IMG/VR virus record: IMGVR_UViG_3300011252_000588
Location: 1-33,830 of that record
Length of the DNA stretch: 33,830 nucleotides
Source: a virus
Direction: 5' to 3' (one strand)
Part shown: positions 20,444 to 28,447 of the stretch, one piece after another
Numbering within the stretch: position 1 is the first letter of the stretch
Layout: every line of letters starts with the position of its first letter
Notes under the pieces: model-generated
What the model was told of the DNA's origin: nothing
Database searches by the model: none
What the model saw: the letters and a program-made list of their open reading frames with translations, nothing else
Translations under genes and position numbers: made by a program

Positions 20444-20788
20444 TTATTTATTCTTGTCACCCAAATCCTGAGACTTTCCTATCCTACCCCATTCTTGTTC
20501 TAGATTATGAGCAGTCCTCATTACGATCTCGATTCTCGTAATGCTATCTTCCAGCGATCTAATTCTATCAATCAATTTTACCAATATGCCATATTGTTCT
20601 TGCTGGGTACTATTTAATTTAGCCATCAATTCTTGCTGTGTCTCTGATAAACCATCTTGAACTTCTTTGATCTCTTGTGTTAGATTATTCATCAACCATT
20701 TTAGAATTGCCCAAAAACCAAATGCAACTCCTATTGCTGCTGTAATTGGAAACCCTACTTCTGCTATCAATATGTATATGTCTTCCAT
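20444..20788 (-). CDS. holin-like membrane protein with coiled-coil tail
   Basis: This is a 114-residue protein with one N-terminal hydrophobic helix (about residues 5-33, EVGFPITAAIGVAFGFWAIL) followed by a long amphipathic coiled coil (about 36-90, LTQEIKEVQDGLSETQQEL) and a polar tail. The 'vGFPI' N-terminus plus short helical tail resembles the BhlA/UviB group of holin-like proteins, though the tail here is longer. It starts two bases after the cyclase stop and is the last gene before the terminator at 20053. It may be a holin, or a membrane partner of the cyclase. Confidence 0.7.
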   Translation of the reverse strand: MEDIYILIAEVGFPITAAIGVAFGFWAILKWLMNNLTQEIKEVQDGLSETQQELMAKLNSTQQEQYGILVKLIDRIRSLEDSITRIEIVMRTAHNLEQEWGRIGKSQDLGDKNK

Positions 20789-20789
20789 T

Positions 20790-22604
20790 TCATTCTCCTA
20801 CAGAATATATCATTACTTCTCTTGTTTGTCCTTTTACTGTTATCGAATCAACATACTCATAGTCAAACAAATTTTCAGTTTCGGCTACTGTAGCTTCACC
20901 CACAATGAGAGTAGCATTATAATTTTTGCTATTACTCTCTAATCTAGACGCCAAGTTTACGGCATCTCCTAGAACACTATAATCAAACCTCTGATTACTT
21001 CCCATGTTCCCTACAACACAATCCCCAGTATTGATACCAATTCCAATTTTGATCTCATCAGGAATTGTTTTATTTAAATTTTTCAATTCTTCGATCATTT
21101 CTAGTGCAGATACAACTGCCATCTCGGCATGATTGTCAACCCCTAAAGGCGCATTCCAGAATGCCATAATACAATCTCCCATATATTTATCAATAGTACC
21201 TTTGTTTTGCATAATGATCTCAGTCATCGGTGTCAAAAACGAATTAATCAGCTCGGTCAGTGCTATAGGATCGTCTTTGTATTTTTCTGAGATAGGTGTG
21301 AAACCCCTGATATCACAGAACAAGAAGGTCATACAACGTCGTTCTCCACCAAGTTTCAAAATAGATGGGTCTTTTTGTATTTTCTTGACTAAATCGGGAG
21401 AGAGGTAGGTTCCAAACTGATTCTTGATTTCTTGCTTCATTTTATACTGACGTATAAAGTTATTGAATGTAGAATGGGTGAATACAATAAACCCTGCCAG
21501 CAATGGGTATGACGGGTCAAGTAGCAACGAGTAGGTATCGAACACATAGAAAGATCCATAGAGCATTCCAACGAATACAGCCAGCACACTGAATATAACA
21601 AAATAGATATTGATGGTGTATACAAATACTATAATCAAAATCATCAATACAATTAAAGTTAATATCTCGTAACTCGCTGCGTAGTCAGGGCGGACAATAT
21701 TCTCGCCATTGATAATTGTTTGCAATACACTCGCCTGAATATATTGAGGAGTCTTCAATCCTCTTGGCGTAGGTAGAATTGGAACCAGACCTTCCGAGTC
21801 TGCACCCATTCCAATGATAACCGTCTTGCCATTGAAGTCTGGAAAGTCTTCAATAAATTCGTATTCATTAAATAAATGTTTTTGATTAATCCAGATACGA
21901 CCATGCTCGTCTGTGGGTATCGTGGGAAATGATGGAATACGAATCGCTTGGATTCCTGTTTCGCCTACCTTCATTTGGTAGCTAGGATCACCTGCTGTTA
22001 CTCGTAGGATCTCAAGTGGCACCGATGGATATAGTATGTCGTCTACTTGCACTACCATTGGGATTCGTCGAGTAAGGTTATCGACTTCAGGAGAACCGGC
22101 TGCTATACCATGACCGTCCGCAATTAATTGTGGTGTGTTTACCAATAGCCCATTATATTGAAATACAAAATCTAATGGGTCTTCGCCTATAATCGCAATG
22201 CCAACATGTGGTCCTTTGATACCAAGCATTCTACCACTCACTGTTTGTGATAGCACAACTCCATTATCCTTCATCCATGATGCAAACACCTCGTCACCAC
22301 CATAGCGATCCTCTTCTGAGAAGATCATGGTAAAGGCAATGATGCCTGCACCCTTGTCTCGTATGTCGCTAATAATTTGTGCGAAGTGTGTTCGGGGCCA
22401 CGGGAACTGTCCAAGTTCTTTGAGTGAATCATATCCGATATTGATTAGTGCAATATCTTCACTTTTGTCCACTTGCTGGCGTAGCTGTAGAGCATCAAAG
22501 GTTTTTAACCTGAGCATCTGTATTGGTATTGGGTCTTGTACTCTGATATAAAATAGACCAATGGCTACCAGTAGCACAACCCATATGGACGTTATAATCT
22601 TCAT
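20790..22604 (-). CDS. CHASE2-domain class III nucleotide cyclase
   Basis: This 604-residue inner-membrane enzyme should make cyclic nucleotide in the cytoplasm. TM1 is at about 5-20, then a periplasmic CHASE2 sensor at about 30-305 (ALINIGYDSLKELGQFPWPR; KTVIIGMGAD; GLKTPQYIQASVLQTIING), three TM helices at about 312-377, a linker, and a catalytic domain at about 418-604. Catalytic residues are present: metal ligands D431 (FCDIRGF) and D477 (YMGDCIMAFW), K473, N550 and R554 (GDAVNLASRLE). Position 543, the substrate-selecting Asp in class IIIa enzymes, is Ser, as in class IIIb, some of which respond to bicarbonate. The start overlaps the stop of a 41-residue membrane ORF (ATGA). A full-length cyclase is highly unusual in a phage. 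Confidence 0.95.
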   Translation of the reverse strand: MKIITSIWVVLLVAIGLFYIRVQDPIPIQMLRLKTFDALQLRQQVDKSEDIALINIGYDSLKELGQFPWPRTHFAQIISDIRDKGAGIIAFTMIFSEEDRYGGDEVFASWMKDNGVVLSQTVSGRMLGIKGPHVGIAIIGEDPLDFVFQYNGLLVNTPQLIADGHGIAAGSPEVDNLTRRIPMVVQVDDILYPSVPLEILRVTAGDPSYQMKVGETGIQAIRIPSFPTIPTDEHGRIWINQKHLFNEYEFIEDFPDFNGKTVIIGMGADSEGLVPILPTPRGLKTPQYIQASVLQTIINGENIVRPDYAASYEILTLIVLMILIIVFVYTINIYFVIFSVLAVFVGMLYGSFYVFDTYSLLLDPSYPLLAGFIVFTHSTFNNFIRQYKMKQEIKNQFGTYLSPDLVKKIQKDPSILKLGGERRCMTFLFCDIRGFTPISEKYKDDPIALTELINSFLTPMTEIIMQNKGTIDKYMGDCIMAFWNAPLGVDNHAEMAVVSALEMIEELKNLNKTIPDEIKIGIGINTGDCVVGNMGSNQRFDYSVLGDAVNLASRLESNSKNYNATLIVGEATVAETENLFDYEYVDSITVKGQTREVMIYSVGE

Positions 22605-22726
22605 TCAGCATATTGCTCCAGTAGAATGAATGTGCCTAAACAAAATGAAAACCATCCGCCAAACAGCCAATCTGGAATGATCATCATAAAAAAAATAATC
22701 GTATATATGGATAACAAATTTCGCAT
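22601..22726 (-). CDS. 41-residue hydrophobic peptide between fecR-like gene and cyclase
   Basis: A short frame runs from the ATG at 22726 to a TGA that overlaps the cyclase ATG (ATGA, 22604-22601). The peptide is hydrophobic, with a first segment at about 4-18 (LLSIYTIIFFMMIIP) and a second at about 20-36 (WLFGGWFSFCLGTFILL), and ends QYAE. Its start is 7 bases after the FecR-domain gene stop. The precise stop/start coupling on one side and close spacing on the other make it a likely real gene that fills the only gap in the operon. It could be a small regulator or subunit of the cyclase. No family is known to me, and its ribosome site is weak. Confidence 0.6.
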   Translation of the reverse strand: MRNLLSIYTIIFFMMIIPDWLFGGWFSFCLGTFILLEQYAE

Positions 22727-22732
22727 AAAATC

Positions 22733-23785
22733 TCACTGTTCTTGAGTAATCTGTATATTACTTTCTCCTGATCCAACAATAACGGTAACAGGCTCTCCAT
22801 CTTTTAGGGTGACAGAATAGCTGCCTGTCTTATCTAGCTTCAGACGAACTCTATTGTTCACCTTTCTTTCAAATATAACTTGACGATCTGTGACAATGGT
22901 ATTAATCTTCGTAACCGGATCTAAACCAAGGGCTGTGCCTTTGATTGTGAACGTCTGACTTTTTTCTTTCTCTTTTTTAGTAATTTTTTTGATAACATTC
23001 TGAAGTTCGTTTCGATCATCTTCGCGAAAATCTTCTTCTACTGTCTCTCTATCTTCCTCTTCTTCATTAAAGACATCATCATCCAATTCGTTTTGATCAA
23101 GAAACGTATTGTCTTCATATTCCTGATCCTCTTCTATGATCTCTACATCTTCTTCAGCTTCTTCAATAAAAAGCTCGGACATTAATCTATTATCTATTTC
23201 GAGAATGACTGGCTCTGTTGGAGATGATTCGGCTGAAGAAACCATTGTAGCTTGAAAAGCCTCGTTCAACGTTACGCTATCCACAAGACTTTCTACTACA
23301 ACTTCACCAACTACTCCATCAGCATCAGGCAACAGGACTACTAGACTACGACCAACCTCATCTACAGTCGTCGTGAAGTCTGTGCCGCGAATACCAATCG
23401 TCGCAGTCGGCGTGCGTATTTTAATTTTATTCTTATCTACTAAACCCAGCTTACCCGTGGCAAAGCGCGCAGTACCCGCAGCTACCTTGAATGCCATCTT
23501 TGATTTCTTTGGGTTGGGATCAAATACAAACTCATCAATAACCAGCTTGGAGTTTGCAGATAGCTTTACTGTAGAACCATCATCAAATGTAATCTCAAGT
23601 TTACCATTGTCCGTGCGAACATTATCATAACTATGAATGTCCAAAGAAAGAGAAGCGACGAGGCGTCCACCGCTTTTACGGATAACCTCGCCGCTTCCTT
23701 CGTGCGTCGTTATTCTGCCAATATCTGCGTATGCACTACCTTGGCTGAATAAGAGGAAACTGAGTATTAGTTTGATTAATCTCAA
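22733..23785 (-). CDS. secreted FecR-domain protein
   Basis: This is a 350-residue protein with an N-terminal signal peptide (LIKLILSFLLFSQGSAYA, cleavage about residue 20) and a FecR domain at about 30-150: SYDNVRTDNGKLEITFDDGS, KLSANSKLVI and the hallmark RTPTATIGIRGTDF. Then comes a very acidic stretch (about 205-260, EEAEEDVEIIEEDQEYED) and a basic to beta-rich C-terminus (about 275-350). FecR domains act as periplasmic signal sensors or scaffolds. This one lacks a TM anchor apart from the signal peptide. The likely start is TTG at 23785, with GGGG six bases upstream. It overlaps the curlin-like gene by 50 bases and lies just before the 41-residue peptide and the CHASE2 cyclase, so a sensor-cyclase pair is the natural reading. 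Confidence 0.88.
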   Translation of the reverse strand: MRLIKLILSFLLFSQGSAYADIGRITTHEGSGEVIRKSGGRLVASLSLDIHSYDNVRTDNGKLEITFDDGSTVKLSANSKLVIDEFVFDPNPKKSKMAFKVAAGTARFATGKLGLVDKNKIKIRTPTATIGIRGTDFTTTVDEVGRSLVVLLPDADGVVGEVVVESLVDSVTLNEAFQATMVSSAESSPTEPVILEIDNRLMSELFIEEAEEDVEIIEEDQEYEDNTFLDQNELDDDVFNEEEEDRETVEEDFREDDRNELQNVIKKITKKEKEKSQTFTIKGTALGLDPVTKINTIVTDRQVIFERKVNNRVRLKLDKTGSYSVTLKDGEPVTVIVGSGESNIQITQEQ

Positions 23786-24446
23786 TTGTTGCCCCGTTCA
23801 TTGTCCCTTCTAGATTAATAACAGAAGACTGCATATCATTCGCTTGCAAAATATCAATCTGATTATCACTACCATTCAATGCCATAGTAATACTATTATC
23901 CGACCAACCAAGCTGGGTCGTATTAATTGTATTCAAATCACCGTCAAGATTGGTATTCAATACTGCGGTGTCTGCATCAATAATACTTGTCATTTGATTT
24001 TCATTACCAGTAATAGTGATATCAACATCTGCACCAATAGCACTATTAGTAAGCCCTGTAATTAATGCAAGAGTATTTGTGTCGCCAGTCACACTAACAT
24101 CTACAGTTGAATCTGAAACCTCACCTGTTTCACCCATGTTGACATCAAACTGATTGGAATTTCCAATCATTTCAATATTAGCAATGACACCATCTGCCTT
24201 GACTATCTGACCGTCAAGTGAATTGTTGTCACCAGTTTGATCAATATTGACATCCATATTGTCTCCACCCAAAGTGAAGTCTGTGTCAATACCTCCAACG
24301 TTATTAGTATCCCCTGTCTGGTTGACTACCAAATTCAAAGTATCACCGACTTGATCAATATATACATCATTAGATTGCCCATGTGCAGCAAAAGTCGCGA
24401 ACATAGTCATAATAAAGGTAGTCAGAAATGGAATATTCTTTTTCAT
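23736..24446 (-). CDS. secreted curlin-repeat protein
   Basis: This is a 236-residue protein with a signal peptide (FLTTFIMTMFATFAAHG, cleavage about residue 23). The mature part is built of degenerate curlin-type repeats every 20-30 residues: YIDQVGDTLN, VVNQTGDTNN, NIDQTGDNNS, IEMIGNSNQ, VSVTGDTNT, ITITGNENQ, NLDGDLNT, ALNGSDNQ. The core is [Q/x]-x-G-[D/N]-x-N, as in CsgA/CsgB amyloid repeats, but the Gln is kept only in some units. It is acidic and rich in Asp, Asn and Thr. The AAGGAG ribosome site is strong. It is immediately downstream of csgG, so it is the likely exported substrate of that pore. Whether it forms amyloid fibres cannot be told from sequence. Confidence 0.88.
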   Translation of the reverse strand: MKKNIPFLTTFIMTMFATFAAHGQSNDVYIDQVGDTLNLVVNQTGDTNNVGGIDTDFTLGGDNMDVNIDQTGDNNSLDGQIVKADGVIANIEMIGNSNQFDVNMGETGEVSDSTVDVSVTGDTNTLALITGLTNSAIGADVDITITGNENQMTSIIDADTAVLNTNLDGDLNTINTTQLGWSDNSITMALNGSDNQIDILQANDMQSSVINLEGTMNGATIEINQTNTQFPLIQPR

Positions 24447-24458
24447 TTCTTTCTCCTT

Positions 24459-25238
24459 CTATTCTCTGTAACTCCAGAGATTTGTGTTAACACCTTCCTC
24501 GATCATAACGAGAACTGCCTGTTCAATTGCTGCACGCACAGCGTAACTCACAGGTTCGTTTTCCGTCACTCCAGTCTCTATCTCTAGAGCATTTGTATCC
24601 ATATCTAAAAACTTAATCGTGTCAATACCTGCTTTGATACTGAGTATCGTCTTCAGCGTATTAACCGATAATAAAACCTCTCCAGTTTGTGTACTAACTG
24701 CTCGTAGAGAGATTGTGACTTGATCTTTTCTCCATGATGTGCTTGCACCAATACCAAAATATCTCGCACCCATACCTCCTGTAAATATATTGGAGTCATA
24801 TGAGATGATTCCGCCTTCTAAAATAATTCCAGCATATAATAGAGGGCGCAACTTCTGTTGTGTTTCCTTTGAGTATGATTCTCTCTGGTTTCTGATTAGC
24901 TGACGCTCCTGAATAAGATTGTCCAAGAATGTTCGTTCAACTACAGTAAACCATGTTCCTCCACCGGCATCTTTAAGAGCTTTGATTAACCAGTTACCTG
25001 AGCCTTGAGAAACCGCAGTGGAAAAGAGCGCAAGATTTCCTTTTGATTTACGCTGCCCTGTTAAATCATAAAAATCATAAACCGCTACAACGACCTTCCG
25101 TTGAGGCGGTTTAACCTGAGCTAATCTGTCTATTGCAATTAGTTCTATTACAGGTTCATTTTTAAAGTATTTCGTGGTGGAGCATGAGGTTGTCAGAAGT
25201 AGTAGTGTGATTGCAAATATAAGTTTGCCTTGTATCAA
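24459..25238 (-). CDS. csgG: CsgG, outer-membrane curli secretion lipoprotein
   Basis: CsgG forms the nonameric outer-membrane channel that exports curli subunits. This 259-residue protein has a lipoprotein signal (LLLLTTSC, Cys19) and close matches to E. coli CsgG in KVVVAVYDFYDLTGQ, FSTAVSQGS, WFTVVERTFLDNLIQER, ILEGGIISYDSNI, GGMGARYFGIGAST and LLSVNTLKTILS. It ends near the CsgG LWD position (NLWSYRE) and lacks the last 25 or so residues of E. coli CsgG (277). The start is TTG at 25238, overlapping the csgF stop in a TTGA junction. The lipobox -1 residue is Ser, which is acceptable but not ideal. Confidence 0.95.
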   Translation of the reverse strand: MIQGKLIFAITLLLLTTSCSTTKYFKNEPVIELIAIDRLAQVKPPQRKVVVAVYDFYDLTGQRKSKGNLALFSTAVSQGSGNWLIKALKDAGGGTWFTVVERTFLDNLIQERQLIRNQRESYSKETQQKLRPLLYAGIILEGGIISYDSNIFTGGMGARYFGIGASTSWRKDQVTISLRAVSTQTGEVLLSVNTLKTILSIKAGIDTIKFLDMDTNALEIETGVTENEPVSYAVRAAIEQAVLVMIEEGVNTNLWSYRE

Positions 25239-25687
25239 ATTCCAAAATCTCCAATGGGAATTACTATAGAAGTCGAATTTCCATTGGGGTCTGTGGTTGT
25301 CAGAGTAATCATATCTCCGTCATTACTATATGTGATCAATGTTCCTTCTAATTCAATCTGTCCACTCTCTGAAGCCTCTTCCCCAAATAGTTGGTTAACA
25401 AGCTCACGGCTAAGTTGGCTGTATACTCGGCTCTCAAAGTTACGAAGAAATTTATTCAGGGTACTGTTGTACTCATCACGTTCAGCAGCAGCCAGTTCAG
25501 CTTCTCTCTCAGCTTTCAGTTTATCTTTTCGTGATTTTTCTTGATTCTCAATGGTAAGCATGTGTGCAGAATAACCGATACCATTAAAACTGGGATTCTT
25601 GAATATGTGTACAAGCTCATCCGAATTCGCATCTGATGCAAACATAACAATTCCTATGAGAAATGCGCCGGATAAAACGAGCTTCAT
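25235..25687 (-). CDS. csgF: CsgF, curli assembly factor
   Basis: CsgF caps the CsgG pore on the cell surface and couples secretion to nucleation. This 150-residue protein has a signal peptide (VLSGAFLIGIVMFASDANS), then the CsgF signature near the mature N-terminus, ELVHIFKNPSFNG (E. coli FQFRNPNFGG), which is the part that enters the CsgG channel. A helical charged region (KSRKDKLKAEREAELAAAER) and a beta-rich end (TTTDPNGNSTSIVIPI; E. coli TDRKTGQTSTIQVS) follow. It is the first curli gene of the module, starting two bases after a virion-type gene and overlapping csgG by four bases. Confidence 0.92.
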   Translation of the reverse strand: MKLVLSGAFLIGIVMFASDANSDELVHIFKNPSFNGIGYSAHMLTIENQEKSRKDKLKAEREAELAAAERDEYNSTLNKFLRNFESRVYSQLSRELVNQLFGEEASESGQIELEGTLITYSNDGDMITLTTTDPNGNSTSIVIPIGDFGI

Positions 25688-28435: not shown

Positions 28436-28447
28436 TATTTATAAATA
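28436..28447. promoter_or_regulatory. palindromic divergent late promoter
   Basis: TATTTATAAATA is a perfect 12-base palindrome. It contains the T4 late-promoter octamer TATAAATA on the plus strand (28440-28447, 16 bases before the ATG at 28463) and again on the minus strand (28443-28436, about 91 bases before the ATG at 28345). One site can thus fire late transcription in both directions. Phage gp55-type sigma and the clamp would be needed. Gene 45 is in this window. Confidence 0.82.

Follow-up and report, generated by a model that had tools for sequence, protein, structure and literature searches.

A type VIII secretion (curli) module that includes a nucleotidyl cyclase (AC) and a FecR protein has been described in phages by Wittmers et al. 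2022 (PMC9599517), and partial reports of the module appeared earlier (PMC7029224, PMC9004378). In cultured phages the cyclase is annotated as I899_gp019 in Pelagibacter phage HTVC008M and as QZI94833.1 in phage Melnitz. Bacteria possess cyclases in which the catalytic domain is joined to a CHASE2 sensor. The S. meliloti CHASE2-ACs raise cAMP in response to a protein signal that is sensed via the outer-membrane barrel NsrA (PMC13001267), and clusters found in Campylobacterota combine a CHASE2-AC with FecR, a phosphodiesterase and a TPR protein (PMC9239204). Here we analyzed a stretch of 33,830 nucleotides from a marine T4-like phage (IMG/VR record IMGVR_UViG_3300011252_000588, hereafter referred to as the window), whose AC is a divergent new member of the already published phage curli module. 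It is a full-length homologue of the T8SS cyclase described by Wittmers et al., as well as of the ACs of HTVC008M and the four Methylophilales phages Melnitz, with 40% identical residues and 100% of the protein covered (tblastn), and it shares the csgF-csgG-curlin-fecR-AC neighborhood with these phages. It differs from their modules in the divergence of its AC, which is at most about 50% identical to its nearest relatives. Based on sequence comparisons and a predicted structure, we estimate a probability of roughly 70% that this class III cyclase is active, uses ATP and provides the inner-membrane signaling component of the phage curli module.

The curli module of the window and of related phages

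The AC gene is located on the minus strand at positions 20790..22604 and encodes a CHASE2-class III nucleotidyl cyclase of 604 amino acids, an assignment that is based on its open reading frame (ATG start, no internal stop), Pfam searches, an AlphaFold2 model and Foldseek comparisons. The initial annotation had proposed a complete class III cyclase with a CHASE2 sensor at this site in a phage, and the coordinates, reading frame and Pfam domains all agree with this proposal, which had not specified the strand. The remaining genes of the module are also on the minus strand. The csgF gene (25235..25687; Pfam PF10614, 8.9e-18) is followed by the gene encoding the CsgG curli secretion pore (24459..25238; Pfam PF03783, 1.3e-54; NCBIfam CsgG, 3.6e-51), a gene for a curlin-like repeat protein of 236 amino acids that is CsgA/B-like (23736..24446; family HMM 2.4e-39, with a weak NCBIfam CsgA match of 3.4e-5), and a gene for a FecR-domain protein of 350 amino acids (22733..23785; Pfam PF04773, 1.4e-13; family HMM 5.6e-123). 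The latter lies beside the AC gene, upstream of it on the same strand. Between fecR and the AC is a possible small hydrophobic protein of 41 amino acids (22601..22726), whose stop codon overlaps the AC start codon (ATGA) and whose ORF occupies the place of the second curlin-repeat gene in most relatives. Directly after the AC is a single phrog_18771-like gene (20444..20788) that encodes a divergent, 114 amino acid member of this family containing a transmembrane (TM) segment and a coiled-coil (family HMM 9.3e-23; phrog_18771, 1.2e-11).

The window thus contains the clustered csgF, csgG, curlin repeat, fecR and AC genes that characterize the phage T8SS module, and their order is the same as in HTVC008M and Melnitz. 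The usual phage order is two phrog_18771 genes, csgF, csgG, curlin, fecR, a second curlin gene and the AC. The window variant departs from this arrangement in two respects, as searches of the window with family HMMs revealed neither a second curlin gene between fecR and the AC nor a second phrog_18771 gene, and its one phrog_18771-like gene follows the AC, whereas relatives usually have two copies near csgF. The second curlin gene is also missing in some other phages, and in some (L181, L185) fecR and the AC are located on different strands.

The association of the AC with the curli genes is conserved. In samples composed of the best 80 matches per scan, which are not random draws and in which related phages are counted repeatedly and a few contigs are entered under two locus ids, csgF, csgG, curlin and fecR are all present in 73 of the 78 phage loci that extend at least 6 kb upstream of the AC, and phrog_18771 genes are found in 76 of these loci (exactly two copies in 75). 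Loci selected by the other genes of the module give the same picture, as the AC is present in all 17 csgG-anchored loci and in 42 of 43 phrog_18771-anchored loci that have 7 kb on both sides. Full-length membrane cyclases had initially been described as rare in viruses, a statement that does not hold, as homologues are encoded by at least 595 stretches in IMG/VR, a count that is a lower bound, and by cultured phages too. Among the IMG/VR matches listed, phage ACs also occur on contigs of 328-338 kb (L180, L194), and PHROG 35576 covers the whole AC of the window (E 2.9e-187). Cyclase matches in a record named Acinetobacter phage MD-2021a (CAKLQH020000011.1, L084) were left out; this record carries mfd, hscA/B and iscA/U and is probably bacterial DNA mislabelled as phage.

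Proteins of the phrog_18771 family are about 85-115 amino acids in length and contain one TM segment and a coil. Judging from their position and size, they are probably the ‘histidine kinase’ that Wittmers et al. placed ahead of csgF; they are too short to contain a kinase catalytic domain. The pair in HTVC008M (L082:3929-4491) has no Pfam match, and the window copy matches the sensor kinase AtoS weakly (E 0.0012), far below the curated cut-off. The second curlin gene of HTVC008M, gp018 (L082:7667-8992), encodes a PA14 domain in addition to Curlin_rpt, and it is possible that the PA14 domain forms a ligand-binding fibre tip.

The small TM proteins and the CsgG pore could also be viewed as parts of a lysis or pore-timing device that is gated by cAMP or by the small coiled-coil proteins themselves. 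CsgG has been proposed to be a gated secretin or pinholin-like pore (Buchholz et al. 2022, PMC9004378), and the phrog_18771 proteins are short, single-TM and coiled-coil, with two of the six tested showing a faint similarity to holins (phrog_4898, E 0.005-0.007). However, this similarity is at the level of noise, and a lysis device consisting only of a pore needs neither curlin-repeat genes nor FecR, which are kept together with the pore in nearly all phages that have the module. We consider such a device improbable and favor fibre export as the function that the AC would serve.

Several other features of the window were noted. The sequence TATAAATA, a candidate T4-type late promoter, is present on both strands at positions 28436-28447, within a divergent gap ahead of the minus-strand run that holds the curli module; its occurrence in the window as a whole is not significantly enriched (4 copies versus 1.8 expected, with 13 of 100 shuffles reaching 4). 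An Rfam search of the window returned tRNAs only, and its phage DNA polymerase is ~50% identical to cyanophage polymerases.

Domain architecture and active site of the cyclase

The AC has the layout of a CHASE2-cyclase receptor, in which an N-terminal TM segment precedes a periplasmic CHASE2 sensor domain (residues 13-324, 21633..22568 on the minus strand; Pfam PF05226, 5.5e-33), three C-terminal TM helices, a signaling helix and a class III catalytic domain (residues 423-600, 20805..21338 on the minus strand; Pfam PF00211 Guanylate_cyc, 1.4e-25). In the AlphaFold2 model (mean pLDDT 89.7), an N-terminal helix leads into a mixed alpha/beta CHASE2 domain and three long C-terminal helices, after which the cyclase domain begins. 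A Foldseek comparison reveals that the catalytic domain is similar to that of the class IIIb cyclase CyaB from P. aeruginosa (3r5g; target-normalised TM-score 0.87, 1.6 A), and its fold is also like that of the class IIIb enzyme CyaC from S. platensis (1wc0; 0.78-0.86). In a sequence search of the PDB, the best matches were CyaB/Cya2-type cyclases (E 1e-31 to 1e-26).

All of the residues that define class III catalysis are present in the AC, namely two metal-binding aspartates (D431 and D477), a base-contacting lysine (K473), and a transition-state asparagine and arginine (N550 and R554). Each of these residues, as well as S543, is positioned exactly where the initial annotation had placed it. 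These six positions never vary in the 81 closest phage homologues, and within a wider set whose mean pairwise identity is 44%, D431, K473 and D477 are kept in 160 of 160 sequences and R554 in all 158 that have letters at this position. The plain reading of this invariance is purifying selection, and the AC is very probably a catalytically active class III cyclase. An AC that is catalytically dead and functions only as a scaffold or sensor, which had been named at the outset as an outcome that would overturn the assignment, is hardly credible. Nothing was found in its favor, and a dead family is strongly opposed by the invariance of all six positions in the close homologues and by the wider set of 158-160 sequences, which without exception keeps the metal ligands, the lysine and the arginine. 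By sequence, K473 and S543 form an adenine-type pair of the kind that is typical of purine-specific ACs, and it is plausible that the phage sets the level of host cAMP with its own enzyme.

The catalytic domain is also matched by the PADLOC models for PycC (best 4.7e-27), and the AC could conceivably counter a Pycsar-like host nucleotide defence, for example as a decoy or as an enzyme that makes cCMP or cUMP. However, the best PycC match is confined to the generic class III domain (residues 421-558), the purine-type K473/S543 pair argues against a cCMP/cUMP maker, the linkage to CHASE2, FecR and curli has no known place in Pycsar, and a Pycsar effector was not seen among the window genes examined. 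Membership of the AC in PycC was rejected, as the match is that of a generic cyclase and no cNMP-gated effector is present among the neighboring genes examined. We judge a role in counter-defence to be very improbable, and retain the reading in which the AC is an ATP-using component of the curli module.

The initial annotation had further assigned the AC to class IIIb. This is supported by S543, which occupies the position that is an aspartate in class IIIa enzymes, and a Ser/Thr-type residue at this site is common to the window AC and to CyaB and CyaC. However, the subclass label is weak, since position 543 is a serine in 91, a threonine in 47 and an aspartate in 20 of the 160 homologues that belong to the same phage family. 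Bicarbonate activates some class IIIb members, but because of this variation, control by CO2 or bicarbonate, which had been suggested initially, is not inferable from residue 543. In contrast to CyaB and CyaC, the relatives with an aspartate at position 543 (20 of 160) always pair it with a serine at position 550 in place of the asparagine, and in this subset the substrate or mechanism has possibly changed. Cyclases with the D543 and S550 combination are present at L189, L195, L197, L198, L202, L226, L230, L233, L236 and L237.

Bacterial CHASE2 cyclases and surface-protein export

Alphaproteobacterial CHASE2-ACs resemble the phage AC in that they combine CHASE2, TM and cyclase segments and are often adjoined by FecR. 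S. meliloti CyaD1, CyaD2 and CyaK are named here as the type only, as the comparison rests on the best 80 alphaproteobacterial loci, 74 of which are untruncated. An ORF with a FecR domain is located directly upstream of the AC in 27 of the 74 untruncated loci, a further 8 have one at a distance of up to 8 kb, and many of these bacterial ORFs are large, encoding 900-2,450 amino acids. Pfam searches of 124 genes neighboring the bacterial ACs gave FecR matches for 32 genes, ABC_membrane matches for 10 and HlyD matches for 9, and type I secretion genes are found near the alphaproteobacterial enzymes. These loci are distinguished by FecR-domain proteins of giant size and by type I secretion, whereas the phage loci contain curli and phrog_18771 genes; neither curli, CsgF/G nor phrog_18771 genes were found beside the bacterial CHASE2-AC in any of the 80 loci. 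The phage and bacterial ACs are separated by a single branch (SH-aLRT 100) in a tree of 80 rows that was calculated with a quick method and in which long branches make the positions of L259, L260 and L264 uncertain.

The best ‘bacterial’ match, L165/L264, was considered as a donor genome and rejected, as its gene content points to a phage contig that was binned with a bacterium. At L264:9632-15813, the AC and two phrog_18771 genes are located beside TolC, HlyD and a membrane protein that Pfam does not clearly assign, and curli genes are missing.

In one marine order with small genomes, the CHASE2-AC is accompanied by ORFs with a cNMP-binding domain (PF00027). In 21 of 24 genomes, such an ORF of 571-591 amino acids and the CHASE2-AC are no more than 6 kb apart, and PF00027 ORFs of 145-185 amino acids lie within the same distance in 23. 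The larger ORF is a cNMP-binding/HlyD fusion by Pfam in two genomes and is assumed to be so elsewhere from its size. The fusion adjoins an ABC exporter of the peptidase-C39 type, an arrangement in which the cyclic nucleotide would apparently control the exporter directly. Fusions located by the CHASE2-AC in small marine alphaproteobacteria occur at L152:6256-7980, L266:6867-8591 and L267:11750-13465. Because FecR, type I secretion and cNMP-binding/HlyD proteins are its neighbors, the CHASE2-AC is tied repeatedly to the export of surface proteins in bacteria.

Predicted cAMP signaling in SAR11-type hosts

The hosts of some relatives that carry the AC module belong to SAR11, and potential cAMP receptors were sought in phages and in genomes of this type. 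HTVC008M and Melnitz contain no PF00027 domain, and 36 other module-bearing phage contigs yielded no PF00027 match over the cut-off. A small alphaproteobacterial genome (G242) contains two SAM-V riboswitches, one ahead of a PLP enzyme of Cys/Met metabolism and the other ahead of a homocysteine S-methyltransferase. Because this arrangement matches what we take to be that of Pelagibacter, the genome family reached through G242 looks like SAR11. PF00027 is present in 5 of the 99 genomes of this SAR11-like family and is missing from the other 94. A class I cyclase was found in none of the 99, a class III cyclase in 3 (one below the cut-off) and CsgG in 2. Both full cyclases and both CsgG genes are located on the same two phage-like contigs, L259, on which the curli module is accompanied by ORFs that were read by eye as terminase-like and portal-like, and L260, which carries the whole module. 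By comparison, PF00027 exceeds the cut-off in 10 of a set of 14 control genomes and occurs in all 32 genomes of a control order whose marine genomes are similarly small, so small genome size is not the cause of its absence from the SAR11-like family; incomplete genomes or receptors with other folds are possible causes.

These results bear on how cAMP produced by the phage would be read. Wittmers et al. 2022 (PMC9599517) suggested for the AC the route of Gammaproteobacteria, in which CRP of the host and a CsgD-like regulator take part. Such a route is plausible in hosts that possess CRP-family proteins, which could include those of many relatives. However, the phages are without CsgD (PMC9599517), and since cNMP-binding domains are nearly absent there, signaling via CRP appears unlikely in SAR11-type hosts; the scarcity of PF00027 relative to the control order counts against the route in hosts of this type only. 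Taking all hosts together, we view the CRP-CsgD route as rather doubtful. As a tentative proposal, the phage would provide a SAR11-type host with a cAMP signal for which the cell has neither its own cyclase nor a canonical receptor, and this signal may act through a receptor outside the cNMP-binding family, possibly a protein of the phage module, or may be exported. The phrog_18771 pair is a possible receptor, because it tracks the AC even on L264, where curli is replaced by TolC/HlyD-type genes.

In the mechanism that we propose for the AC as the signaling component of the module, the phage would build CsgG/CsgF pores and export curlin-repeat proteins through the envelope, and the CHASE2 domain would sense the state of this export assembly in the periplasm, probably with FecR as its partner. 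The sensed state would alter the rate at which the enzyme, if active as predicted, synthesizes cAMP, its presumed product, in the infected cell, and cAMP would in turn tune the export or expression of the fibres. Support at the level of sequence is provided by the invariant active site, the domain architecture, the conservation of the module and the linkage to FecR in phages and bacteria. Two observations speak against parts of this mechanism. A canonical cNMP-binding domain that could read the output is missing from HTVC008M, Melnitz and most of the SAR11-like genomes and does not exceed the cut-off in the 36 other phage contigs, and the location of fecR and the AC on different strands in L181 and L185 weakens the case for a direct CHASE2-FecR contact.

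The role of phage curli and the reader of cAMP can be addressed with the cultured phage HTVC008M and its host Ca. Pelagibacter ubique HTCC1062, and experiments would be most worthwhile on the predicted orphan cAMP signal of SAR11-type hosts. The AC is conserved as an enzyme and not as a passenger, and CHASE2, FecR and the export of fibres or adhesins are linked in phages and bacteria alike. In phages of very abundant ocean bacteria, a phage-borne second messenger, predicted to be cAMP, is thereby tied to phage-borne surface fibres.
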